Assembly (NCBI GenBank): GCA_028047635.1 | Contig: JAOFXR010000001.1 | Span: forward strand, 62,001-126,000 | From: Verrucomicrobiales bacterium | Lineage (GTDB): Bacteria; Verrucomicrobiota; Verrucomicrobiia; Verrucomicrobiales; DEV007 | Direction of reading: 5' to 3' | Length of the DNA: 64,000 nt | In this document: in pieces, positions 47,461 to 63,325 of the stretch | How the letters are laid out: every line of letters starts with the position of its first letter | Numbering within the stretch: position 1 is the first letter of the stretch | The notes under the pieces: model-generated | The model's input: only the letters and a program-made list of their open reading frames with translations | The model's database searches: none | Told to the model about the DNA's origin: nothing | Translations under genes and position numbers: made by a program

Positions 47461-49410
47461 CTAACGCAGACGTCTGTCGTCTCCCTCACGAACGGTTACC
47501 TTGTAAGCATCAAGGCGCTCTAACAAAGGCATTAGGATTCGCCGAACGGTTCCAGTGTGTTGGCGCAGTTCACTCGCCGTGGCCTTACCGTGCGCTTTCA
47601 AAAAGGCAACAATCTCACTCTGAATGAGTTCGTAGCCTGCCGTAGAAATGACCGTCTTAGGGTCCAGTTCAATCACTTCCCCGGTATGAGCTAAAAATCT
47701 CAGCGCTTTTTCCTCCGCAGGATTCGCTGCTGTCTCGCCCTTATTTGGCGGAGATTTCAGATCCGAAGCGAGTCGTTTCCGAACCAGCTCTCCAGCTTTA
47801 AGCAAGTTAGGTGGTAACTGGGGAATGTGATCCCGATGACGAATGTTAGGGCCGGCTTTCGCGAACTCGCCCGAGAGCAATCCTTCGAGAACCATGTCAA
47901 AAAACTTTGGCGCAGGAAGCTCCCGCTCCATCATCGTGCGCAGCTCTCGCAGCGGAAATCCCAGTTGATCGGGATGATCGCGGTGAACTGCGAGAATCCT
48001 TTCTCCCGCCACTCCAGTGATGCGCTTCCACCAGGCTCCTTCAAAAACCCAATCACCACTTCGTTGCAGTGCTCCTTCAGCGACGAGCCGATCCACCACT
48101 TCGACAACAGCCTCACTACTGAAGTGAGACTTGAGCAACAGGCTCGAAATGGGCGCGACCATATCACGCTTCAACTGAGAACGAACGAGTGTCTCAAGAT
48201 CGTGCGGGGCAAGCGCCCTCGCCTCGAGGAACTCTTTCTGAAAAGGCTTTCGAAAGGCGCGTCGATTCGCGTCCTCATCCAGAACAATTCCCCCGGCCAA
48301 GGTCACTCCGAGCGAGGCATTACGAAGCACAAAACTGTCTCCGGCAAAAACATAAACAGGTGTTTTGAAACGAAGCTCTGCAAGAACCGTTTCACCGGGG
48401 CTGAGCGATCGCTGCCCGAGAATATGAAGCCGTGCCGCGACGCCCGAACTTCCATGATGAAACATCACCTGCCTCCCCGTCCGGATCGCCTTCGTCGACT
48501 GCTTCATGCCCCGGATCCCTCGATCCGATTTCGAAATGAGCACATCAATCGCGGTCACCGCCTCTCCCGAATTCGGAAGTGTGAGAACATCCCCGCGGCC
48601 GACTCCGCTGCGTGCGCCTCTGCGATCTTCGCGCAAGCTGATGCCAGTGAGATTCAAAGCCGTTCGCGTCCCCGGAGGAACGCTCTCAACCGTCTGACTA
48701 TGGGACTGAGCGCTCCTTACGTGCGCCACTTCGCCACCCGGCCGTACGACCAGGTCGGTTCCTGCGTCCACATTTCCCTCGGTAAGCGTTCCCGTAACGA
48801 CGGTTCCGACGCCCTTGATGGAGAAAGCGCGATCAACGGGGAGTCGAGGCTTGCCACTGTTCCGAACGACAGGAGCCTTGGTAAGAACACTCGAAATCGT
48901 ATCGCGTAAATCGTCAATCCCCTGCCCCGTATGTGACGACACCGGAACGATGGGAGCATTCTCCCAAATCCCTCCCGCCAGATTCTCTTTCAGATCTTCG
49001 AGAACCAACTCCAAATCCTCAGCCAAATCCAATTTAGTCAGCGCAATGACCGCGTTCTTAACCCCGAGGTAGGTGAGGATTTGGTAGTGTTCCTCCGTCT
49101 GCGGCATCCACCCGTCATCCGCCGCTACAATGAAGAGAGCCAGATCAATCGCCCCGACACCGGCGACCATGTTTTTCACAAAATCCGCGTGGCCCGGCAC
49201 ATCGACGACGCCTAACTCCAGCTTATTCCCCGAACCATCAGACGCAGGAATCGCAAGCTGGGCAAAACCAAGCTCGATCGTCATTCCGCGCGCCTTCTCT
49301 TCAGGAAGTCGGTCCGGGTCAGTTCCCGTAAGCGCTTCAATCAGCGAACTTTTCCCATGGTCAATATGACCGGCGGTTCCAAGAATAAAATGACGTGGGG
49401 TGTTGTCCAT
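47461..49410 (-). CDS. selB: Selenocysteine-specific elongation factor SelB
   Basis: 649 residues from the ATG at 49410. GTP-binding motifs are complete: LGTAGHIDHGKSSLIEALTG, VDVPGHADFVKNMVAGVGAI and IALTKLDLAE. After the EF-Tu-like domains the C terminus has winged-helix repeats (IQSEIVAFLKAHGKATASEL, RRILMPLLERL) that bind the SECIS hairpin of selenoprotein mRNAs. SelB brings Sec-tRNA to UGA codons at the ribosome. In-frame starts at 49440 (GTG, abutting the stop of the upstream gene) and 49431 are also possible. It ends the gene set selA-ABC importer-selB. Confidence 0.96.
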   Translation of the reverse strand: MDNTPRHFILGTAGHIDHGKSSLIEALTGTDPDRLPEEKARGMTIELGFAQLAIPASDGSGNKLELGVVDVPGHADFVKNMVAGVGAIDLALFIVAADDGWMPQTEEHYQILTYLGVKNAVIALTKLDLAEDLELVLEDLKENLAGGIWENAPIVPVSSHTGQGIDDLRDTISSVLTKAPVVRNSGKPRLPVDRAFSIKGVGTVVTGTLTEGNVDAGTDLVVRPGGEVAHVRSAQSHSQTVESVPPGTRTALNLTGISLREDRRGARSGVGRGDVLTLPNSGEAVTAIDVLISKSDRGIRGMKQSTKAIRTGRQVMFHHGSSGVAARLHILGQRSLSPGETVLAELRFKTPVYVFAGDSFVLRNASLGVTLAGGIVLDEDANRRAFRKPFQKEFLEARALAPHDLETLVRSQLKRDMVAPISSLLLKSHFSSEAVVEVVDRLVAEGALQRSGDWVFEGAWWKRITGVAGERILAVHRDHPDQLGFPLRELRTMMERELPAPKFFDMVLEGLLSGEFAKAGPNIRHRDHIPQLPPNLLKAGELVRKRLASDLKSPPNKGETAANPAEEKALRFLAHTGEVIELDPKTVISTAGYELIQSEIVAFLKAHGKATASELRQHTGTVRRILMPLLERLDAYKVTVREGDDRRLR

Positions 49411-49440
49411 TACAGTGCGGGAGCTAGCCATATAATTCAC

Positions 49441-50349
49441 TCATCTAAGTCGCTTTCGCAACCAGGTTGAAGAGAGGTCCATGACTAAAATAAAACAAGA
49501 TCCAAGGAGAACATAAAATAGCATTCGATCCCAGAAAAAGCCTTTCGAGAGCATGATCAGCTTGCCCAGTGTGAGGAGGCCAAGCATGCCCAACACCGTG
49601 GCGTCTTTGATGCACGTTTCCCATCGATAAAAGAAGTAAATTAAGAAGCGATTAAGCGACCGCGGCAAAATGGAAGTCGCGTAGACGGAAGTCCGGCTCA
49701 AGCCAGAACCATACAAGTGAGTCGCCGAATCGTCGTCCGTGTTCTCAATCACCTCCCCCCACAATCGCCCGAGAATTCCAAAATTGTGGATCGCGAGGGC
49801 CAGCACCAGCGGCCAGACCTGCAACCCGAGCAGAGATAGGAGAAGGAATGCGATTAGGTATTCGGGAACGGACCGGGAGAGCACAAAACCAAACCGGACG
49901 ATAGGCCCCAGTATCTTCCAGCCTAACCCGAGAGAACCGCCTACCTTTCCAGTGCGCAATCCAAACGGATCGACGCGAGACAATCTGCGACTCGCCATCG
50001 CGAGAACCGGAAGCACCACCGCCCCGGAAAGAATAATCGCAGCGGTTGCAATCCCAACCGTCGTGACGAGTGCGACGAAGCCCCCGTCCGTGAGCAATTC
50101 CCAGGCCCAGGGAATCGCATCAATCCAATCGCCGGACTTTCGAACCGGAGAGGGAATGAGCCCCTCAGAGAATCGTTGAAGGTTTTCCCATCGCCGGGAA
50201 GCACTGAGCCTCCCAAGCAAGGGATGACTCGTTACCCATGCCCAGCAAATCGCGATACCCACGACGAGGGCGCTGATGCGTAGAAACCAATCTCGAGGTC
50301 GTTGTCGCGCGAGCTCTTCAATACGCGTTGCTCTGGCTGTATTGGTCAT
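49441..50349 (-). CDS. PhnE-type ABC permease, second subunit (putative selenium oxyanion importer)
   Basis: 302 residues from the ATG at 50349, which overlaps the stop of the first permease gene (TAATG). About six transmembrane segments; the EAA-loop region is LYGSGLSRTSVYATSILPRS and the following YFFYRWETCIKDATVLGMLG is typical of PhnE. It forms the channel of an ABC importer with the first permease. Its stop is directly followed by selB, which links the importer to selenocysteine synthesis. Confidence 0.87.
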   Translation of the reverse strand: MTNTARATRIEELARQRPRDWFLRISALVVGIAICWAWVTSHPLLGRLSASRRWENLQRFSEGLIPSPVRKSGDWIDAIPWAWELLTDGGFVALVTTVGIATAAIILSGAVVLPVLAMASRRLSRVDPFGLRTGKVGGSLGLGWKILGPIVRFGFVLSRSVPEYLIAFLLLSLLGLQVWPLVLALAIHNFGILGRLWGEVIENTDDDSATHLYGSGLSRTSVYATSILPRSLNRFLIYFFYRWETCIKDATVLGMLGLLTLGKLIMLSKGFFWDRMLFYVLLGSCFILVMDLSSTWLRKRLR

Positions 50350-51230
50350 TAAATACACCCTCCTTCCTTGGTTTGGAGGTGCCTTCGAATCATCGCTCCC
50401 CACCGATCCACGATCACGATCATCGCAATGAGGAGATAGAGATAAGTCCAAACTTCCCGGTAATAGAACTCTTCATTCGAGAGCTGAATATAAAGACCAA
50501 TTGTCTCAATTCCGACAAAGCCCAAAACCGCCGACGAACGCAGTGCACATTCAAAACGATAAAAGCTGTAAGTGATCAAATTCGGCATCGCCCGGGGAAG
50601 AATCCCAACGAGAAAAGTTTGCACCGGCCCGTGCCCGATCGCCTTGAGCGCTTCCGCCGCATCGCGGGCTTCTTCATCGATCAGTTCGGAAAAGACTTTC
50701 CCCAATGTCCCCGAAAAGGGCAAGGCGAGAGCCACCATTCCCGCCAGCGGGCTGACGCCCATTGCCGAGAGAAACAACAGCGCCCATATCAACTCGTGAA
50801 TCGAACGCAGGAAGCTCATCAGAAACCGGCACGCGGCATAAACCACGCGCAAGAGAGCTTTGCTGCGCTTTCCACATGGCTCAGGCCACCACGCGGATGA
50901 TCCGAAAAACCCTAACAATAATGCTGTCGGCACAGCGAGACTCATCGCACCGAAAGCAAATTTCAAGGTAAGCAAAATCCCTTTCAGGCCTTTCACCAAA
51001 ATAGGCTCCGCATCCTCAGGAACATTGACGTCTTCGTAATCGAGCGCCGGGTGCAAGGCGGCCTGAAAAAAGCGTGCCGTTCGATCCCACTGGTTAACAT
51101 CAGAAGGGATGAGCCCTCTAGGTGTAAGTCCCAGAGCCCAGGCACAAATCAGAAAGACAAAAACGAGAACAAAAAACACCCAACGCTTTTTGCCATAGTA
51201 GGAAGGTTCTGTCGCGGGATCAGGCATCAC
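50349..51230 (-). CDS. PhnE-type ABC permease, first subunit (putative selenium oxyanion importer)
   Basis: 293 residues with about six transmembrane segments. The cytoplasmic coupling loop EALKAIGHGPVQTFLVGILP and the following SFYRFECALRSSAVLGFVGI are close to PhnE of phosphonate importers. It overlaps the ATPase gene by 11 bases and the second permease gene by TAATG. Two different permeases plus one ATPase form a complete transporter with the binding protein encoded upstream. Confidence 0.88.
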   Translation of the reverse strand: MMPDPATEPSYYGKKRWVFFVLVFVFLICAWALGLTPRGLIPSDVNQWDRTARFFQAALHPALDYEDVNVPEDAEPILVKGLKGILLTLKFAFGAMSLAVPTALLLGFFGSSAWWPEPCGKRSKALLRVVYAACRFLMSFLRSIHELIWALLFLSAMGVSPLAGMVALALPFSGTLGKVFSELIDEEARDAAEALKAIGHGPVQTFLVGILPRAMPNLITYSFYRFECALRSSAVLGFVGIETIGLYIQLSNEEFYYREVWTYLYLLIAMIVIVDRWGAMIRRHLQTKEGGCI

Positions 51231-51993
51231 GCATCATCTCTTCGTCGCTCAATTGATAAAGATCCTTCAAGACATCTCCCTCGAGGTCCTCCGGCGCGCC
51301 ATCGAAGACAATTTTACCGGCACGAAGTCCGATCAGCCGCGGGAAATATTCCTTTGCGAGAGCGACATCGTGCAGACTCACACAGAGGGTAAATCCCAAC
51401 TCATCCGACAACTCTCTGAAAAGCCGGATCGTATCGCGTGCCCGTGCGGGATCCACACTGGAAACAGGTTCATCAGCGAGAAGCGCTTCGGGCTCTTGAA
51501 AGAGTGCCCTGGCTATCGCGACACGCTGTTTTTGCCCGCCCGAAAGAGCCGAAACACGGGAGAAAAGTGTCTCTTCAATCCCAACACGATCCAATAATTC
51601 GTGTATCGCCACTTTGTCTTCCATCCCGGGAAACAGGATATCCCGAATTGATCGAAACACCCCTCGATGCCCACCCCGCCCCAGGATCACATTCTGCACC
51701 GCGCTCAAATTCGGGACGAGGCCGAGATGCTGGGGAATCGTCGCGATCATGCTGCGAACGGCACGCAACTCTTTGGGTGAAAGTCCGTCAGGATTTTTAC
51801 CGAAGACAGTGAATGATCCAGCATCCTGCCGGAGCGTCGTATTGAGAAGGCGAAGCAAGGTGGTTTTTCCGCTCCCGCTCGGGCCAATCAGAGCGACGTT
51901 CTCTCCAGCCTCGATCGTCAGCTCTGCTAATTCCAAAGCCACAAAATCCCCGAAACGACATTGAACATCGGTGAGTTGAAAGGAATTGGACAT
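51220..51993 (-). CDS. PhnC-type ABC transporter ATPase (putative selenium oxyanion importer)
   Basis: 257 residues. Walker A is LIGPSGSGKTTLLRLLNTTL, the signature LSGGQKQRVAIARAL, Walker B ALLADEPVSSVDPARA, and the His switch LCVSLHDVALAKEYFPRLIG. Overall the sequence follows PhnC of phosphonate/phosphite importers. It powers uptake through the two permeases encoded downstream. The gene lies 62 bases after the binding-protein gene. Confidence 0.92.
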   Translation of the reverse strand: MSNSFQLTDVQCRFGDFVALELAELTIEAGENVALIGPSGSGKTTLLRLLNTTLRQDAGSFTVFGKNPDGLSPKELRAVRSMIATIPQHLGLVPNLSAVQNVILGRGGHRGVFRSIRDILFPGMEDKVAIHELLDRVGIEETLFSRVSALSGGQKQRVAIARALFQEPEALLADEPVSSVDPARARDTIRLFRELSDELGFTLCVSLHDVALAKEYFPRLIGLRAGKIVFDGAPEDLEGDVLKDLYQLSDEEMMRDA

Positions 51994-52055
51994 TCGTTCA
52001 GAAAAACAGCGCCTCGTTTCCGGAAAGGAATCCCAAGGCGATGTTGAAAGGGTAA

Positions 52056-52991
52056 TTACTCTTCGATCAAACCGACTTCAATGGCCGTCGCTTTGATTCC
52101 GTCAAAGTCTGCATTCTTCGCTGCGATAATTGACTCCCGATTGATCGCTTTAAGCGCATCTGAGCCGGCCGGTGCCGCGATCAGCGCTACCTGGACTTTT
52201 TTGGCGAAGCCTTCTCCAAATGCTGTCGACGCGTCGGGATGAATCGTAAAATTGTAATCGGCATAAAACGGCGTCGTCCAGATTTTCACGGTGTTCTCAG
52301 CAATTTTTGGATCGCTTTCGACAAGCGAATCATAAGTCTTGTAGTTGAGTGCTCCGATTTGATAAGTGCCATCCGCGACCGCATTTGCCGTAGCGACATG
52401 ACCACCACTTATCTGGTATCCAGGAGGCGAGGCAAACCAGTCGTCAGGCGCAGCGCCACCGTTATTCTGCATGATGTAATAGGTCGGCATGAGACGACCC
52501 GAAGTCGACCCTGCAGAACCAAAAGTGAACTTCATCTCCTTGATTGCTGCAGGAAACTCAACGGACTCTTTGAGGCCGGTCGACGTGTTGGCAATGAAAT
52601 AGGATTTATACTGGGGATCCGCCTTGCCTTGAGCAATTGCTTCAGCCCCTTCGACCGCAATGCGGGCCTGAACGCCAGAGAGTCCCCCAAACCACACGAG
52701 ATGGACCTCGCCATTCGCAAATTTGGTCACCGCATCGGAGTAATCCTTGGAAAACACGAACTCAGTGGTGACACCTAGCTCTCCTGAAAGGTATTCAGCG
52801 AGCTTATCGAACTTCGTCTTTTGATCGGTGATTTTCTCATCGGGAATCGCAGAGAGATAGAAAGTCGCGCCAGGCAAGTCATCTAAAGAGCTGACGGAAA
52901 TGTCGGGAGCGGACGGATCACCACCACAGCCGACGAGGGCCATTGCAGTTACCGCAGCCAGACCGACGCGGAAAAGGAGACTTTTCAACAT
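52056..52991 (-). CDS. PhnD-type substrate-binding lipoprotein (putative selenate/selenite importer)
   Basis: 311 residues with a lipoprotein signal (LAAVTAMALVGC, lipidated Cys22). The PhnD-like type II binding fold is seen in FDKLAEYLSGELGVTTEFVF, VHLVWFGGLSGVQARIAVEG and FTFGSAGSTSGRLMPTYYIM. PhnD relatives bind phosphonate, phosphite and similar oxyanions. Its place between selA and selB points to a selenium oxyanion. As I recall, NCBI protein models include a putative selenate ABC transporter binding protein in this family; that was not checked here. A different oxyanion substrate cannot be excluded. Confidence 0.85.
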   Translation of the reverse strand: MLKSLLFRVGLAAVTAMALVGCGGDPSAPDISVSSLDDLPGATFYLSAIPDEKITDQKTKFDKLAEYLSGELGVTTEFVFSKDYSDAVTKFANGEVHLVWFGGLSGVQARIAVEGAEAIAQGKADPQYKSYFIANTSTGLKESVEFPAAIKEMKFTFGSAGSTSGRLMPTYYIMQNNGGAAPDDWFASPPGYQISGGHVATANAVADGTYQIGALNYKTYDSLVESDPKIAENTVKIWTTPFYADYNFTIHPDASTAFGEGFAKKVQVALIAAPAGSDALKAINRESIIAAKNADFDGIKATAIEVGLIEE

Positions 52992-53103: not shown

Positions 53104-54507
53104 TCAAAAAATTGCCAGCAAATTCTTAGTCACTTCCGCGTCCTGATCGGGGAATACAGTTCGAAGATCGATACGAAAACGGTCTTCAGCCACATACCCC
53201 TGAATCGGCAAGGCCTGCCTGCGCAATGAAGCGGCCATTTTGGCAACGTTCATCGTTGAGGGATTGAAATCCAATGCAAGTGATGGAATCTCCGCCTGTG
53301 GCATTGTCCCCCCGCCACATCGGGCAATCGTTTCTACCAGAGTCGCTTCGAGACCGACGCACTCTTTCAAGGAAGCAAGAATCGCCTCTCCGCGGGGACG
53401 GAGCTCGCTCTCCACATCTGCAGATATCATGCGAATGAGAGGAATGTCAGGCTTTCCGCCCGCATCTGCACTCAGATAGGCAAGCACCGTTTCCTGCATT
53501 CCCGTGAGGATCATTTTATCGCACCGAAGAGCGCGGAAAAAAGGTTCTTTTTTAATGCCGGCAACGAGATCAGGTCGCCCCGCAATGATTCCGGCCTGAG
53601 GTCCGCCGAAGAGCTTGTCTCCGCTCACACATACGAGATCAACACCACGTTTCAGAACTTCGGCTGCAGTCGGCTCATGAGGAATAGGAGCAAGGTTGTC
53701 GGTCTGAATCATCGCACCACTTCCGAGGTCTTCGACGACAGGAAGATCGTGTTCTTTGCCCAAAGCGACGAGCGCCTCCGTCGTGGGTTCGTCGACAAAA
53801 CCGCCCATCCAGAAGTTCGAGCGATGGACTTTGAGAAGCATCCCCGTCTTGGGAGTGATCGCTTTTTCGTAGTCGGCTAGAGAAGTTTTGTTGGTCGCCC
53901 CCACTTCGACGAGCTTCGCTCCGCTCGCCTCCATGATCTCCGGAACTCGAAATCCTCCGCCGATCTCGACGAGTTCGCCCCGTGAGATGATCACTTCATT
54001 CCTTTCGCCATTCGCGAGATGCTTGAGCATGAGAATGAGAGCCGCCGCGCAGTTATTCGTCACCGTTGCCGCCTCTGCTTTGCAAAGAGAAGCCAGGCAA
54101 TGCTCGAGAAACCCGCCCCGCTTTCCCCTTTCGCCGGTATTAAGGTCAATCTCGATATTATTGTAATACTGCCCCACCCCACTGATCGCTGACACCACCT
54201 CGGCCCGAAGAGGAGAGCGCCCCAGATTGGTATGGATGCAGACACCCGTTCCGTTAATCACAGGATGAATCCGCGAGCGAAAAAGAGCGTCGGCTTTTTC
54301 AACGAGGCCTGACACGAATGCCTCGAACTCCGGAACATCGTGATTCCCGGCCTTCACCGATTCCCGCAGCGCTTCAACGTCCTCGCGAACCAGTCGGGTA
54401 ACCAAAGGTTGAGGCAGCGGGGCAAGGTCGCTGTTCTTCTCCAGTGCAAGCAACACTGTGTCAACGGCGGGTATCTTAGCGAAAGGGTTGGAGGAAACAC
54501 TGCTCAT
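53104..54507 (-). CDS. selA: L-seryl-tRNA(Sec) selenium transferase SelA
   Basis: 467 residues from the ATG at 54507 (MSSVSSNPFAKIPAVDTVLL), which matches where SelA proteins begin; a longer frame upstream is not protein-like. Key parts are INGTGVCIHTNLGRSPL, ATVTNNCAAALILMLKHLAN and DLVCVSGDKLFGGPQAGII with the PLP Lys in SGDK. It converts Ser-tRNA(Sec) to Sec-tRNA(Sec) using selenophosphate from SelD. It precedes the importer genes by about 110 bases on the same strand. Confidence 0.96.
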   Translation of the reverse strand: MSSVSSNPFAKIPAVDTVLLALEKNSDLAPLPQPLVTRLVREDVEALRESVKAGNHDVPEFEAFVSGLVEKADALFRSRIHPVINGTGVCIHTNLGRSPLRAEVVSAISGVGQYYNNIEIDLNTGERGKRGGFLEHCLASLCKAEAATVTNNCAAALILMLKHLANGERNEVIISRGELVEIGGGFRVPEIMEASGAKLVEVGATNKTSLADYEKAITPKTGMLLKVHRSNFWMGGFVDEPTTEALVALGKEHDLPVVEDLGSGAMIQTDNLAPIPHEPTAAEVLKRGVDLVCVSGDKLFGGPQAGIIAGRPDLVAGIKKEPFFRALRCDKMILTGMQETVLAYLSADAGGKPDIPLIRMISADVESELRPRGEAILASLKECVGLEATLVETIARCGGGTMPQAEIPSLALDFNPSTMNVAKMAASLRRQALPIQGYVAEDRFRIDLRTVFPDQDAEVTKNLLAIF

Positions 54508-54662
54508 GACGGGAACAGAAACATCAACGGACTCGATAGAAAAAGCAAGACTCAACGAAAAGCGATATGATTCCGAAATCACTCGCACAGGTCATTTGAT
54601 CTGCTAGAAAAAGGTGACCATTTTCCTCGCCTGTGATCCCCCCCCGTTTGTATGGTTTGCGA

Positions 54663-57639: not shown

Positions 57640-58695
57640 TTACACGACTTTCACCAGAGCACCGTCACCCGCTGCTGTAATTTGCCCTACTACGGTCTGA
57701 CAAAGCGTTTCATCCTCGTCACAAATCGCGAGCACGGCTTCGAGGTGCTTTTCAGGAACACAGCACAGCAATCCGCCACTGGTTTGAGCATCGGCGAGCA
57801 AGTACCTCGACGCATCGGAAACGCCGCTCCCCCATTCGACATCCTCATTGGCTGTGTTGAGATTCTCTTTCGTTCCTCCGGGCACGCATCCCTCCTCTTC
57901 AATCAGTCGAGTGATCTCAGGACCAATCACGGGAATATCGGAAGCGTTCAACGTCGCAGTAACGCCACTGGACCGGCACAATGAAATCAAATGGCCGAGA
58001 AGCCCAAAGCCCGTCACATCGGTCGCGCATTTGACAAGCCCCTGCTCAGCCATTCGCTGGCCCGGTGTATTGAGGCGGGACATCAGTGCCACCGCGGTAT
58101 CGACAATCCCCCCGCTGACGAGCCCACGCTTAATCCCAGTGGTAAGAATACCCGTTCCGAGCGGTTTCGTGAGAAGGAGAATGTCTCCCTCCTCAGCGCC
58201 GGCATTGGTAATCATTCGTGATGGATTCACGAGACCGGTGACCGAGAGCCCATAAATTGGCTCTGGATTTTTGATCGAGTGCCCACCCGCGAGCGCGCAC
58301 TTCGCCTCTTTCACTTTATCAGCTCCACCCGCAAGAATCTCATGAATGACCTCCAGGGAAAGAATATCTGCCGGCATTCCTACCACATTCATCGCCGTAA
58401 CCGGACGACCGCCCATCGCGTAGATGTCAGAAAGCGAATTGGTCGCTGCGATCTGACCGAAGAGATACGGATCATCCACGATAGGAGTGAAAAAGTCGAC
58501 CGTCTGTACCATCGCTAGATCCTCGGACAATTGATACACGGCAGCATCGTCAGAGGTGCTGGCTCCTACGAGTAATTTAGGGTCTTCGAACTGATTGAGC
58601 CCACGCAAAACTTGCGCGAGTGCCTTTTGGCTGAGCTTGGAAGCTCAACCCGCGCAGGACGAAAGAGAGGTAAGTTTGATGGGTTCTTCTGACAT
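57640..58695 (-). CDS. selD: Selenophosphate synthase SelD, itself a selenoprotein (Sec17)
   Basis: 351 residues if UGA at 58645-58647 is read as selenocysteine. From the ATG at 58695 the product reads MSEEPIKLTSLSSCAG-U-ASKLSQKALAQ; Sec17 and Lys20 sit at the same numbers as catalytic Cys17 and Lys20 of E. coli SelD. A caller that stops at UGA would start inside the gene and lose 29 residues. Other motifs are LVGASTSDDAAVYQLSEDLA, VDFFTPIVDDPYLFGQIAAT and CALAGGHSIKNPEPIYGLSV. It makes selenophosphate from selenide and ATP for SelA. A SECIS-like hairpin follows the UGA. Normal family length supports this start. Confidence 0.95.
58600..58620 (-). promoter_or_regulatory. SECIS-like hairpin in selD
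   Basis: On the coding strand CTCGCGCAA pairs with TTGCGTGGG (9 bp including G-U pairs) around the loop GTT. The loop starts with G and lies 33 bases after the UGA, inside the 16-37 range described for bacterial SECIS elements. Just around the UGA itself, GGTTGAGCTT and AAGCTCAGCC can pair as an alternative fold (58629-58650). Confidence 0.65.
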
Positions 58696-58750: not shown

Positions 58751-60556
58751 CTACGGTTCAAAGGGCCAAAACAGGGGAATCAAGATCGTCGCGGCGATCC
58801 ACAAAATAATATTCAGGGGAACGCCGACTTTCACAAAGTCGCTGAACTTGTAGCCTCCCGCGCCGTATACGTAGGTGTTTGTCTGATAGCCGATGGGAGT
58901 CGTGAAGCTCGCACTGGCCCCGAACATGACCGCGACAATAAAGGGACGAGGATCAACGCCCAGCGAACCGGCAATGGAAATCACAATCGGCGTCAGCAAA
59001 ATGGCAACGGCATTATTCGTCACCATCTCGGTGAGAAGTGACGAGAGCATATAAATTGCCGCCAATATCGCAACGGGGCCGAAAACAGCCATCACTCCCA
59101 CGACCTGATTTGCGAGCATCTCAGCACCACCTGTATTTTCCATGGCCCGACCGATCGCGAGCATTCCATAGATCAGAAAAAGGATACTCCATTGGATGCT
59201 TTTATAAGCATCTTTCACATCAACGCAGCGGGTCAAGAGCACTGCCACAGCACCGACGAGAGCGGCGCTCGTAATCGACATCACCTCAAAAGCCGAGCAC
59301 GCAATCACCCCGAGCAGAATGCCCACCGCGATGAGCACTTTTGAGTTTCGAGGCGCTTTCACATTCAACTCATTGAGACTTAAAAAATCGTCGCGTTGCT
59401 GCAGTCGCACCAGGTTATCGACCGGCCCCTCGATCAGCAGAGTGTCACCAAATTGCAAGAGTGTGTCCTGAAACCCCTCTTCAACATTCTCCCCTTTCCG
59501 GTGGACTGCTGCGACGACCACGCCAAAATGTCGACGCAGATTTGAACTGCGAATCGTTCGCCCGATGAGAGAACTCTTGTTCCCGATAATTGCCTCAACC
59601 GTCTTAATCTCAGGGCCCTTTTCCTTCTTTTCATCAGAGGAAGAAGACCGGTCATGCATCATTTTGAGGCCCTCGGTTTCTTTGATCACCGCGAGTTGCT
59701 TCGAGGTAGCCCGCAGATGCAGAATGTCGCCCTCCCGCATCACCATCGCATCGAGAGGAATTTCCGTCACGGGGATACCCTGACGGATCACTTCGTAGAC
59801 AATGGTGCGACGGCTCGTCGAGAAAAGTGGATGCTCAATGAGCCGCTCTCCGATCAATGGAGAGTCTTCCGATATTTTCACCCCGCTCAGAAATCGTCTC
59901 GTGTCTTCGGCATCGAGGAGACTGCTCACGGTGTCGCGCGAAGGGAGCAGTCGGCTGCCAAAGAAATACAGGTAAGTAAAACCGATCGCGGCATAAATTG
60001 CTCCTAACTTACTGATCTCAAAAATACCGAATGGTGGCTGACCACCATCTTTAGCGACACTTGCCACCAGCAGATTGGTCGACGTCCCGACGAGGGTCAT
60101 CGTTCCCCCGAGAATACTAAGAAAAGAAAGCGGAATCAGCAGCTTGCTCGCTTTGAGGCCGGAACTCCTTGAAAAGGCCATGATCACTGGCAGAAAGACG
60201 ACGACCACAGGCGTGTTGTTCATCAGGGCCGAGAGAGGAACTACGATCAAAGCGATAATCACGAGCGCCCGACTCATCGACTTTCCGGCCCATTCGCTGA
60301 ATTTGATCGCAATCGCATCAATCGCCCCCGTCCGGACAAGCGCCTCACTGACAATGAACATGGCCCCAATTGTGATCGGAGCAGGATTCCCGAAAACGAC
60401 TTTCAGATCACTTTCACGCAGGACTCCAAGTATGATCAACACACTCATTCCTCCGAGAGCGGCGAGTTCTGAGGAAACCCACTCTTTAATAAAGCAGGCA
60501 AAGACCGCGAGCAGAACCAGAAAGGTGAGAATGAGTTGGAGGTTTTCGGAAAACAT
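58751..60556 (-). CDS. SLC13 family permease with two RCK_C (TrkA-C) domains
   Basis: 601 residues from the ATG at 60556 (MFSENLQLILTFLVLLAVFA). Two blocks of membrane helices flank two cytoplasmic TrkA-C domains (DSPLIGERLIEHPLFSTSRR, then MREGDILHLRATSKQLAVIK; and SSLIGRTIRSSNLRRHFGVV, then FGDTLLIEGPVDNLVRLQ). MNNTPVVVVFLPVIMAFSRS and LTEMVTNNAVAILLTPIVIS are the SLC13/DASS hairpin motifs with Asn-Thr/Asn-Ala sodium-site residues. Relatives carry sulfate, other oxyanions or dicarboxylates. It lies 55 bases after selD and diverges from the DUF6428 gene; oxyanion transport is possible but not shown. Confidence 0.88.
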   Translation of the reverse strand: MFSENLQLILTFLVLLAVFACFIKEWVSSELAALGGMSVLIILGVLRESDLKVVFGNPAPITIGAMFIVSEALVRTGAIDAIAIKFSEWAGKSMSRALVIIALIVVPLSALMNNTPVVVVFLPVIMAFSRSSGLKASKLLIPLSFLSILGGTMTLVGTSTNLLVASVAKDGGQPPFGIFEISKLGAIYAAIGFTYLYFFGSRLLPSRDTVSSLLDAEDTRRFLSGVKISEDSPLIGERLIEHPLFSTSRRTIVYEVIRQGIPVTEIPLDAMVMREGDILHLRATSKQLAVIKETEGLKMMHDRSSSSDEKKEKGPEIKTVEAIIGNKSSLIGRTIRSSNLRRHFGVVVAAVHRKGENVEEGFQDTLLQFGDTLLIEGPVDNLVRLQQRDDFLSLNELNVKAPRNSKVLIAVGILLGVIACSAFEVMSITSAALVGAVAVLLTRCVDVKDAYKSIQWSILFLIYGMLAIGRAMENTGGAEMLANQVVGVMAVFGPVAILAAIYMLSSLLTEMVTNNAVAILLTPIVISIAGSLGVDPRPFIVAVMFGASASFTTPIGYQTNTYVYGAGGYKFSDFVKVGVPLNIILWIAATILIPLFWPFEP

Positions 60557-60695
60557 AAGAAGACTCCGAAAGTGAACCCTGATTTTGTAAGTAAATCCAG
60601 CAAACTCGCGTCTCAATGACTACTTTCTGCTCTCACCTGTGTGCCAAAACTTCTGTTTGCGAATCCCTTGTAATACTTCTCTACTGATCAACGAA

Positions 60696-61196
60696 ATGAT
60701 TTCACTCACTCAATTCAAAAACGTTCTCTCCGAAAATCCTGAGAGCGGACTTCAGCTTCTTCTTCCTACCGGAGAAACCATCCCCGCACATTTTCACATC
60801 ACTGAAGTCGGCTATGTGACCAAAGATTTCATTGATTGTGGCGGCACTCGCCGAACCACTTCGAGCTGCGTTTTACAAAGCCTCGTCGCTCATGATGTCG
60901 ACCACCGACTCAAGGCCGGAAAACTAGCGGGCATCCTCCAGCTTTCTGACAAAGTGGTTCCTGATGCCTCTGTTCCCGTTGAAATTGAATACGATGCAGG
61001 AACCGTTTCTACTTATGCTTTCGGCAGTGCCCTTCCGAGCCGGGATGGCAAAGTGATCGTTGTTTCGCTGGAAGCGAAGCACACCGCGTGCCTCGCTCCT
61101 GACAAATGTGGTCTCGAAGAGCTGGATGAAAAGGTAAAACAGGCCACGGAATGCAACCCTTCAGCCGAACCTGCCGCAGGCGGCTGTTGAGGCTGA
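60696..61196 (+). CDS. DUF6428 family protein, candidate selenoprotein ending Gly-Cys-Sec-Gly
   Basis: Up to TGA at 61188-61190 the product has 164 residues: PTGETIPAHFHITEVGYVTK, KDFIDCGGTRRTTSSCVLQ, DVDHRLKAGKLAGILQLSD and a Cys-containing HTACLAPDKCGLEELDEKV are DUF6428-like. The tail reads SAEPAAGGC, then TGA, GGC, TGA. Reading the first TGA as Sec adds two residues and gives a GCUG end. As I recall, family members often end in a Cys pair, so Sec would replace the second Cys. A GC hairpin with loop GGTC follows. DUF6428 genes are often near arsenic-resistance genes in other bacteria (from memory); none are seen here. ATG at 60696 follows a divergent 139-base promoter region. Confidence 0.8.
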
Positions 61197-61204
61197 TTCA
61201 CTTC

Positions 61205-61220
61205 CGCGCCGGTCGGCGCG
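61205..61220 (+). promoter_or_regulatory. SECIS-like hairpin after the DUF6428 UGA
   Basis: CGCGCC (61205-61210) and GGCGCG (61215-61220) pair perfectly around the loop GGTC (61211-61214). There are 20 bases between the UGA at 61188-61190 and the loop. The loop core GGUC is the same as in the E. coli fdhF SECIS. There is no T-run after it, which argues against a simple terminator. Confidence 0.6.
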
Positions 61221-61241
61221 ACACACCTCACACTCCCACCT

Positions 61242-61266
61242 CGAAGAGATATATCTTATCTCTTCG
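61242..61266. terminator. Bidirectional hairpin between DUF6428 and DUF3472 genes
   Basis: CGAAGAGATA (61242-61251) and TATCTCTTCG (61257-61266) form a perfect 10-bp stem with a 5-base loop. The stem covers the stop codon of the minus-strand gene and lies after the plus-strand gene, so it may end transcription from both sides. No long T-run is present. Confidence 0.5.
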
Positions 61267-63325
61267 AATCAATGTAAGCGCGGTCTTCATCGGAGAGCTT
61301 GGAAACATCCAGAGTTCCCTTTTTACCATCGGACTTCCGCTCGATCTGCACCTTGTTTGCCGCAATCGCAACGAGGCGGCCTTCCAATTTGGAAGGAGCC
61401 GAAGTTCCTCCAGCTGAGTAGGTCCACACCCGAACAAGTTCTTCCTCAAGCCGCTTCGCTGATGAAGTCCCCTTCGGCTTCGCTTGAGATTTTTCACTCG
61501 CGATGAGAGGCTCCATTTTCACAGGAGCTGATCCGGAGGAAGTGGTTCGGAAACTCAGAGTGTCCTCGTTCCAAACCTGGCTCACTTCATCCTTCATCAG
61601 AACCCGGTAGAAGTAGGTCGTATCCGGTTCAAGTCCCGTAAGCTCAATCGCGTTGAGCCCCAACTCTGCAGATGGCAATTCCACCTTCTCTTCCCACGAC
61701 TGACTGTTCACCTCATTACTGAGCGATGAATTCTTCTCGGTTCCGTGAAGCTCCCTTGGCGCAAATGTCAGGGCATCTTTGACCCCGTAGAAAACGATGC
61801 CGGACTGGAGGTTCGAAAGGGATGCCACATCCATTTCAATGCGGGCGCGATCCGAGCCCACTTCACTCGCTTGAATCGCCCGGTATTCAATTGGCATTTG
61901 GAAAACATTTTCGAGACTGGCACTCGTCAAAAAATACGGAGGCTCATCAATCCCTCCCGGCTTTACGAGCGCATCCTTATGGGAGTAAAGTCGAATCCCT
62001 CCGCATCCCATCGCGTATTCGCCGTCCTTCGTCGTATACCAACTTTTATTCACCGGCTCATCACCAGAGCTGCCTGAGCCTCCGGGCGAATAGGTTTCCA
62101 GTGGAACCCACTTTCCGTCATCGTATGACCAACCACGCCGACGGACTTCGCGATAGACATCTCCCGTTCGCTCGACCTGAGGCGGCCCGGGAACCTCGCA
62201 AAAAGAACCGAGCTTGAGATGCTCGTTCGATTTCCCTCCATGCCACTTCTTCCCTCCGCCGTAGAATTTCCAGGCATTGGTGGGATGATCAAAATAGTAA
62301 CCGTAGTAGGCGTCATAGTCCTTTCCCGGAACTAAGCGGAGAGCCTGCACTACCAGCTCCGGGCGATCCGGCATCGGGTCCCATCCTCGTGGCTTCACTC
62401 CGGAACCTTCGTGACCAAACCCGCTGAACTCTCCCTCCGGAGATCCGACTCCCAACAAGTGCGGCATCATCTTCAAATCAGACGCGGCTCCGTCTTTCCC
62501 CCACATCGAAAAGTTGAAGGACCCATTGCTGCGCATGTCGCCATCAAACGAGGTTCCGTAGTAGCCAAACGGCGTCGTGATCGGAGAATAACTGGAAATA
62601 GGAGCAATGCTGCGAGTCGTAAACACGAGCAACTTCGAGTTCGGCACTTTGGAGGTGTCATACCCGCCATGTGCGGCAGCAGGACGCCAACGAACCCGCA
62701 AAAGTTGAGCCTCTTCAATCGCAGGACCAAACGCATCAATGTGATATAACTGACCAATCGAACCGCCACTGCTTGAACCGGTTCCGCCAAGCGAAATCAT
62801 ATACTCGCCCGGCTCTTCGACCTCAAACGCAAGATCCCAGGCTTGAGCTTTCTTTGCATTGGAAGAAGACGGCTTCACGACCTTACTTGCGCCGGCAAAC
62901 TTCACCTCAACATCACCTGCGCCTCCTCCGCTCGCTAGATGAACATTGAACCGAACCATTCCCGCTCTCTTCACCAACAGATGCCAGCGTAAGGTTCCCT
63001 CATTCGACTTCCAATCGAGATGCTCGTAGTTAGGAACGATGAGGTCCTCATCGCCCACTTTAGGCAGTTTCGACTCTCCCTTCGCCTGACAAGTCCCTTT
63101 CGTAAAAAAACCATTACTCGCGGTGAGGATCAGTTTCCCCTCCGTCTCAAGCTGACCGAGATACGAATAGTCCCGCCCCTCCTCATCAATACCACCCGGC
63201 ACAGGCTGTGGCGCATTTTCCAACTGACCGTAGCCCCCCGGAGCCTCCTCAGCGCTCAAAATGCCGACAAGACATGCGAGTAAAGGAGCAAGAAACAGCG
63301 GTGAGAAAATTCTGAACATCTTCAT
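61256..63325 (-). CDS. Secreted DUF3472 protein with fibronectin-like and SHD1-like domains
   Basis: 689 residues with a signal peptide (about 1-25). Residues about 60-190 form a DUF5077-like carbohydrate-binding-type domain (LRWHLLVKRAGMVRFNVHLA). The DUF3472 domain follows (SNGSFNFSMWGKDGAASDLK, PGKDYDAYYGYYFDHPTNAW, REVRRRGWSYDDGKWVPL). Around 530-620 a fibronectin/purple acid phosphatase-like domain has LNAIELTGLEPDTTYFYRVL. The last 60 residues (KVQIERKSDGKKGTLDVSKL) resemble SHD1 domains common in Planctomycetota and Verrucomicrobiota. Extracellular function unknown; probably glycan-related. Confidence 0.82.
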   Translation of the reverse strand: MKMFRIFSPLFLAPLLACLVGILSAEEAPGGYGQLENAPQPVPGGIDEEGRDYSYLGQLETEGKLILTASNGFFTKGTCQAKGESKLPKVGDEDLIVPNYEHLDWKSNEGTLRWHLLVKRAGMVRFNVHLASGGGAGDVEVKFAGASKVVKPSSSNAKKAQAWDLAFEVEEPGEYMISLGGTGSSSGGSIGQLYHIDAFGPAIEEAQLLRVRWRPAAAHGGYDTSKVPNSKLLVFTTRSIAPISSYSPITTPFGYYGTSFDGDMRSNGSFNFSMWGKDGAASDLKMMPHLLGVGSPEGEFSGFGHEGSGVKPRGWDPMPDRPELVVQALRLVPGKDYDAYYGYYFDHPTNAWKFYGGGKKWHGGKSNEHLKLGSFCEVPGPPQVERTGDVYREVRRRGWSYDDGKWVPLETYSPGGSGSSGDEPVNKSWYTTKDGEYAMGCGGIRLYSHKDALVKPGGIDEPPYFLTSASLENVFQMPIEYRAIQASEVGSDRARIEMDVASLSNLQSGIVFYGVKDALTFAPRELHGTEKNSSLSNEVNSQSWEEKVELPSAELGLNAIELTGLEPDTTYFYRVLMKDEVSQVWNEDTLSFRTTSSGSAPVKMEPLIASEKSQAKPKGTSSAKRLEEELVRVWTYSAGGTSAPSKLEGRLVAIAANKVQIERKSDGKKGTLDVSKLSDEDRAYIDSKR

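Follow-up and report, generated by a model that had tools for sequence, protein, structure and literature searches.

The DUF6428 gene of the 64-kb window (the whole stretch of DNA that was analysed) very probably encodes a selenoprotein, whose end would read Gly-Cys-Sec-Gly. The initial annotation had placed Sec at the position of the last Cys, and this is supported by the alignment column, a covarying SECIS-like hairpin shared by nine genomes of two lineages, a Gly codon and a stop after the UGA in seven of the nine UGA-type members of the family, and Sec machinery in eight of their nine genomes. The features concerned are the following.

60696–61196, forward strand: candidate DUF6428 selenoprotein gene; 164 amino acids, Sec (UGA, 61188–61190), Gly (61191–61193) and stop codon TGA (61194–61196).
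61188–61190, forward strand: UGA, the proposed Sec codon, aligned with the final Cys of the homologues that end in Cys-Cys.
61205–61220, forward strand: SECIS-like hairpin CGCGCC-GGTC-GGCGCG, with the loop at 61211–61214, 20 nt past the UGA.

From direct reading of the sequence, we observed that the frame 60696–61187 closes with GGC TGT and continues as TGA (61188–61190), GGC and TGA (61194–61196), the same codons that had been noted initially. The protein matched the PF20001 profile (DUF6428) with an E-value of 5.8e-41 (140.3 bits; gathering cut-off 28.7). In the proposed mechanism, SelB would act on the hairpin just 3' of the UGA, leading to the delivery of Sec-tRNA(Sec) to this codon, and the protein would end in Gly-Cys-Sec-Gly in place of Gly-Cys-Cys. 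This SelB step is an established part of Sec decoding in bacteria.

We collected DUF6428 homologues from the family of the window genome (matches in 24 of 74 genomes), its order (169 of 386) and its class (112 of 384), from an order of Planctomycetota centred on the genome G392 (61 of 396), and from a named collection, where an alignment scan gave 588 matches (80 loci kept) and a single-protein scan of the genome contigs found no relative. The fetched loci yielded 166 distinct readable 3' ends, nine of the UGA type and 157 others. Among the latter, 125 end in Cys-Cys-stop, eight in Cys-Cys-X, seven in a single Cys and 17 otherwise, in agreement with the statement of the initial annotation that DUF6428 proteins tend to end in Cys-Cys. 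Since the homologues are mostly Cys-Cys-ended, the UGA occupies the column of the last Cys. The initial annotation had named homologues with no Cys at this column as evidence against Sec, and homologues do have Cys there. The UGA-type members are listed below.

Window's family: the window (G000), G037 (locus L010) and G063 (locus L011).
Planctomycetota: locus L070 in G392 and locus L085 in G407.
Order of G392: G774, G792, G731 and G762.

Within the order of G392, the five UGA-type genomes scored 240–277 bits and every other match 188.5 bits or less. In the class-wide search (384 genomes) the window scored 263 bits and the next match 172, and no further UGA-type member was present among the 30 loci supplied (the window, L040 and L177–L204). 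The UGA is followed by GGN and a stop in seven of the nine members, with GGT, GGC, GGG and GGA all in use, and by TAG in the other two; six of the nine end in Gly-Cys-UGA-Gly-stop. A Gly-stop after the TGA was found in none of the 82 other TGA-ended DUF6428 members.

In a quick version of the tree, as opposed to the careful one, the UGA rows did not form one clade (5 changes vs 8.9 in shuffles), and the starred branches force at least 2 changes. Of the relatives found, L012 (1415–1812) in G031 is the nearest to the window copy, with 70% identity over the matched part; it is frameshifted (matches in two frames), with an early stop and the tail missing, and no selA or selB was found over the cut-off in its genome. 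The DUF6428 tails of named loci such as L099 and L123 equal those of genomes in the window's genus and family, which places the window genome, by inference, in the Verrucomicrobiota. The quick tree places L079, from a metagenome bin labelled Klebsiella pneumoniae, with the Verrucomicrobiota, and the bin is probably mislabelled. L082 (Deltaproteobacteria/Myxococcota label), which ends in Gly-Cys-TGA-TAG, was rejected as a UGA-type member; it has no GGTC hairpin, and neither selA nor selB was over the cut-off in its 1.3-Mb bin.

The hairpin described in the initial annotation was confirmed at 61205–61220 as a perfect 6-bp stem (CGCGCC/GGCGCG) with the loop GGTC; the distance from the UGA is 14 nt to the start of the stem and 20 nt to that of the loop. 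Among the 26 perfect Watson–Crick hairpins of the 64-kb window (at least 6 bp, 4-nt loop), it is the only one with GGTC, or its complement GACC, in the loop. A GGTC-loop hairpin 17–20 nt past the UGA was present in all nine UGA-type members and in none of the 157 other DUF6428 3' ends (Fisher 5e-15, a value that ignores relatedness, five of the nine being close relatives). Due to this relatedness, the members amount to about five distinct UGA cases. All 54 cells of the nine stems were paired, with two-sided changes in five of the six pairs. The covariation score was 0.917, compared to 0.330 in shuffles, and sliding gave no more than 0.190; none of 500 shuffles scored as high, and RNAalifold predicted the same helix unaided. 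As one stem sequence is common to five of the nine members, the covariation stems from five distinct stems. Among the five close Planctomycetota members (proteins 76–96% identical in their last 140 residues), the spacer varies and the 16-nt hairpin is invariant. The loop of the UGA-type members is always GGTC, closed by C-G. Such hairpins are uncommon in the 1.58 Mb of loci: of 662 entries with a four-base loop, 16 have GGTC or GACC in it, and the nine UGA-type sites account for 10 of these (one site being entered twice), in a locus set where UGA loci are over-represented.

We also compared the hairpins with the published bacterial SECIS model, which sets rules for stem, loop and spacing (PMC13188914, section 5) and a free energy of −7.5 kcal/mol or lower. 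All nine members fit the stem, loop and spacing rules (6–7 bp, loop GGTC, 17–20 nt). Under the energy rule, with folding of 28 nt, five of the nine passed (−12.3 kcal/mol for the window copy) and four were at −6.8 to −7.3. Among the planctomycete members of its stem type, folding with the UGA included was performed on L070, where the lowest-energy structure was another pairing that disrupts the hairpin (−12.4 vs −10.4 without the UGA). A bSECIS-rule scan missed L070 because its hairpin energy is just above −7.5 kcal/mol, and also matched the non-UGA tails L013, L017/L092, L124 and L135. Therefore, the rule alone is weak evidence, and conservation decides. Rfam at the gathering threshold gave no match in the window.

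SelA, SelB and SelD had been placed within 14 kb in the initial annotation, and this holds, as all three exceed the curated cut-offs.

47461–49440, reverse strand: selB (TIGR00475, 294.8 bits; cut-off 242.25).
53104–54588, reverse strand: selA (TIGR00474, 501 bits; cut-off 267.9).
57640–58695, reverse strand: selD with an in-frame UGA at 58645–58647 (SSCAG-Sec-ASKL; TIGR00476, 389.1 bits with the UGA read as Sec; cut-off 125).
58600–58620, reverse strand: hairpin of the selD UGA, a 9-bp stem with the loop GTT starting 33 nt past the UGA.

The in-frame UGA lies near the start of SelD, the usual place for Sec in this protein. Given this codon and the hairpin downstream of it, the window genome likely decodes Sec; selD is likely a second selenoprotein gene of the window and would support Sec decoding in the genome. 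Standard annotation would cut this gene short at the in-frame UGA. ABC transporter genes lie between selB and selA (49441–52991, reverse strand), and the substrate-binding protein among them (52056–52991, reverse strand) is barely over the cut-off of TIGR04553, a putative selenate ABC transporter model (252.9 vs 250 bits).

Among the nine UGA-type genomes, selA was over the cut-off in six (G000, G037, G063, G392, G774 and G792) and selB in seven (G000, G063, G392, G774, G792, G731 and G762). A tRNA-Sec with the anticodon TCA, over the cut-off and confirmed by ARAGORN, was present in seven (all except G000 and G407). Eight of the nine thus hold two or more of selA, selB and tRNA-Sec; selD was looked at in the window genome alone. 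In the window genome, whose assembly is 63% complete, tRNA-Sec was not found, and in G407, a 3.5-Mb bin for which completeness is not given, none of selA, selB and tRNA-Sec was found. The gene order around DUF6428 in G407 matches that in G392. UGA-type genomes are modestly enriched in selA (6 of 9, compared with 28 of the 133 non-UGA genomes tested; Fisher 0.006, with relatedness and possible species repeats ignored). As 28 non-UGA genomes carry selA, the gene is also found alongside Cys forms.

The neighbours of 78 non-UGA named loci (same strand, within 400 nt, mechanically picked) were scanned. The downstream genes (n = 44) comprised LMWPc at 13 loci, SBF at 10 and MIP (aquaglyceroporin) at four; the upstream genes (n = 49) comprised HTH_5 (ArsR) at 21, LMWPc at six and MIP at five. 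In such operons, we take LMWPc to be arsenate-reductase-type and SBF to be ACR3-type. Three DUF6428–LMWPc fusions were also observed (L076:8001–8873, L083:3433–4302 and L135:8001–8867), in which the LMW phosphatase domain starts at the place of the Cys-Cys tail. The neighbours and fusions of the Cys forms point to arsenic handling. At the nine UGA-type loci, LMWPc, SBF, MIP and HTH_5 were absent from all 18 nearest genes, and for this reason a role in arsenic handling may not extend to the Sec form. The nearest genes at these loci are as follows.

Six planctomycete loci: CDP-alcohol phosphatidyltransferase; UPF0004/radical SAM/TRAM protein (which we take to be RimO-like).
G037: glyoxalase-type gene; alpha/beta-hydrolase gene.
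G063: DUF7133/cytochrome c protein; BatA/VWA protein.
Window: DUF3472 protein; CitMHS/TrkA_C transporter.

The CitMHS/TrkA_C transporter of the window (58751–60616, reverse strand) is the divergent neighbour of the DUF6428 gene and has weak ArsB-like matches. One of the 49 non-UGA loci also has a gene with these domains upstream. Taken together, these two observations leave room for a metalloid link in the window. The Sec form lies outside the arsenic context and would probably act on its own in redox chemistry or detoxification.

The AlphaFold model has a mean pLDDT of 91.7, with a confident body and a low-confidence tail, as expected for a flexible arm. A fold search of the model against solved structures gave none at E ≤ 0.001, and the proposed tail mechanism therefore rests on motif and context. 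The conserved residues include H34, E37, D47, C48, H70, C132 and C138; the body cysteines are C48 of DCGG and C132 and C138 of CLAPDKCG. The likeliest role of the flexible Cys-Sec pair at the C-terminus would be that of a mobile arm for redox chemistry or metalloid binding, which might exchange with C48, C132 and C138 of the folded body or with a partner protein. The tail can be compared with those of two known proteins. Mercuric reductase has a C-terminal cysteine pair, to which the Cys-Sec arm may be likened. Mammalian thioredoxin reductase has Gly-Cys-Sec-Gly as its C-terminal redox centre, and these last four residues are identical to those of six of the nine UGA-type members. However, the FAD/NAD(P)H disulfide reductase domains of that enzyme are absent from the 164-aa body of the window protein, where PF20001 was the sole match at E up to 1. 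The likeness of the two tails is at most convergent.

We gave a very low probability to an ordinary stop at the UGA with the hairpin acting as a transcription terminator, possibly bidirectional, between convergent genes. The window, G063 and the six Planctomycetota loci do have a convergent next gene, but the downstream gene of G037 is on the same strand. Also, no T run follows the hairpin of the window and a terminator scan of 60500–61500 does not report it, and on these grounds it was rejected as a terminator. The invariant C-G-closed GGTC loop, a type so rare in the survey and found mostly at UGA-type sites, also argues against a terminator. An ordinary stop has precedent in the family, since a lone Cys and then a plain TGA close seven other DUF6428 genes (L057, L060, L061, L063, L097 and L194 are among them). 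The initial annotation had named many selB-lacking relatives with the same TGA as a plain stop as evidence against Sec. Such ends do exist in these seven of the 157; however, none of the seven has the hairpin, and selA was not found in the six of their genomes tested (all but that of L194), so these TGAs look like ordinary stops. An ordinary stop would, moreover, leave the Gly-stop after the UGA unexplained.

It is even less probable that the UGA is read by a near-cognate or suppressor tRNA with the help of the hairpin, so that the tail would contain no selenium. Against it stand the Sec machinery, of which eight of the nine genomes have two or more parts, Cys in the same column elsewhere, and the fit of the hairpin to the loop and spacing model published for bacterial SECIS elements. 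A third possibility accepts Sec and assigns the tail a non-redox function, for instance as a carrier of selenium or a metal that feeds SelD or a transporter. The nearness of the window gene to selD, selA, selB and the putative selenate ABC transporter is in favour of this, and so is the suggestion in the 2026 review (PMC13188914) that Sec might bind a metal as a ligand in SaoB, SaoC and UXX-star proteins. We regard it as unlikely, though well ahead of the preceding two, since the selenium-gene neighbourhood is absent at the other eight loci, where the nearest genes belong to unrelated families.

DUF6428 is probably new as a selenoprotein family, although of a known kind. The vicinal Cys-Sec of the window protein is shared with SaoC (NF040734, Cys-Cys-COOH selenoprotein), KCU-star/DUF466 (NF033934) and other CU-motif selenoproteins, and SaoC is tied to metal or metalloid resistance (Table 1 of PMC13188914). 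Going by the names of SaoC and KCU-star, their Cys-Sec is terminal. These CU-tail proteins differ from ours in family, as the window protein and two relatives matched no NCBIfam model at E ≤ 0.001. Sec forms of arsenite methyltransferase and arsenate reductase are also tied to arsenic, but they belong to other families, with Sec in UxxG or UxxS and not in a Cys-Sec tail (same table of PMC13188914). The DUF6428 Cys-Cys forms share with the Sec forms the domain and the conserved Cys, His and Asp residues; they differ in that the last residue is Cys, the GGTC hairpin is missing and arsenic-type neighbours are present at many loci.

The 119 prokaryotic selenoprotein families inventoried in 2026 (Table 1 of PMC13188914) do not include DUF6428, and it is also absent from the new-selenoprotein table of PMC12013277. 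A literature search on bacterial selenoproteins, SaoC, arsenic operons, Verrucomicrobia and Planctomycetes gave no report of a DUF6428 selenoprotein in titles and abstract openings. In a text search of the literature, 'DUF6428' had no match and 'PF20001' occurred once, in an unrelated chemistry paper. Planctomycete selenoproteins are the subject of PMC4807772.

A broader picture, to which we give about even chances, is that DUF6428 is an ars-operon protein with a Cys-Cys arm, which in several Verrucomicrobiota and Planctomycetota has become a Gly-Cys-Sec-Gly protein outside the ars operon, fixed as an independent selenoprotein for redox chemistry or the handling of metalloids, with a SECIS of near-minimal length (16 nt). 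If the Sec assignment is true, the prokaryotic selenoproteome would gain one more family, in which annotation of the UGA as a plain stop hides a likely functional C-terminal residue. The hairpin would then be a very short natural SECIS (6 bp, GGTC loop) located past the stop codon. The family would also offer a small protein for direct comparison of Cys-Cys and Cys-Sec tails, with arsenic as the likely substrate field.
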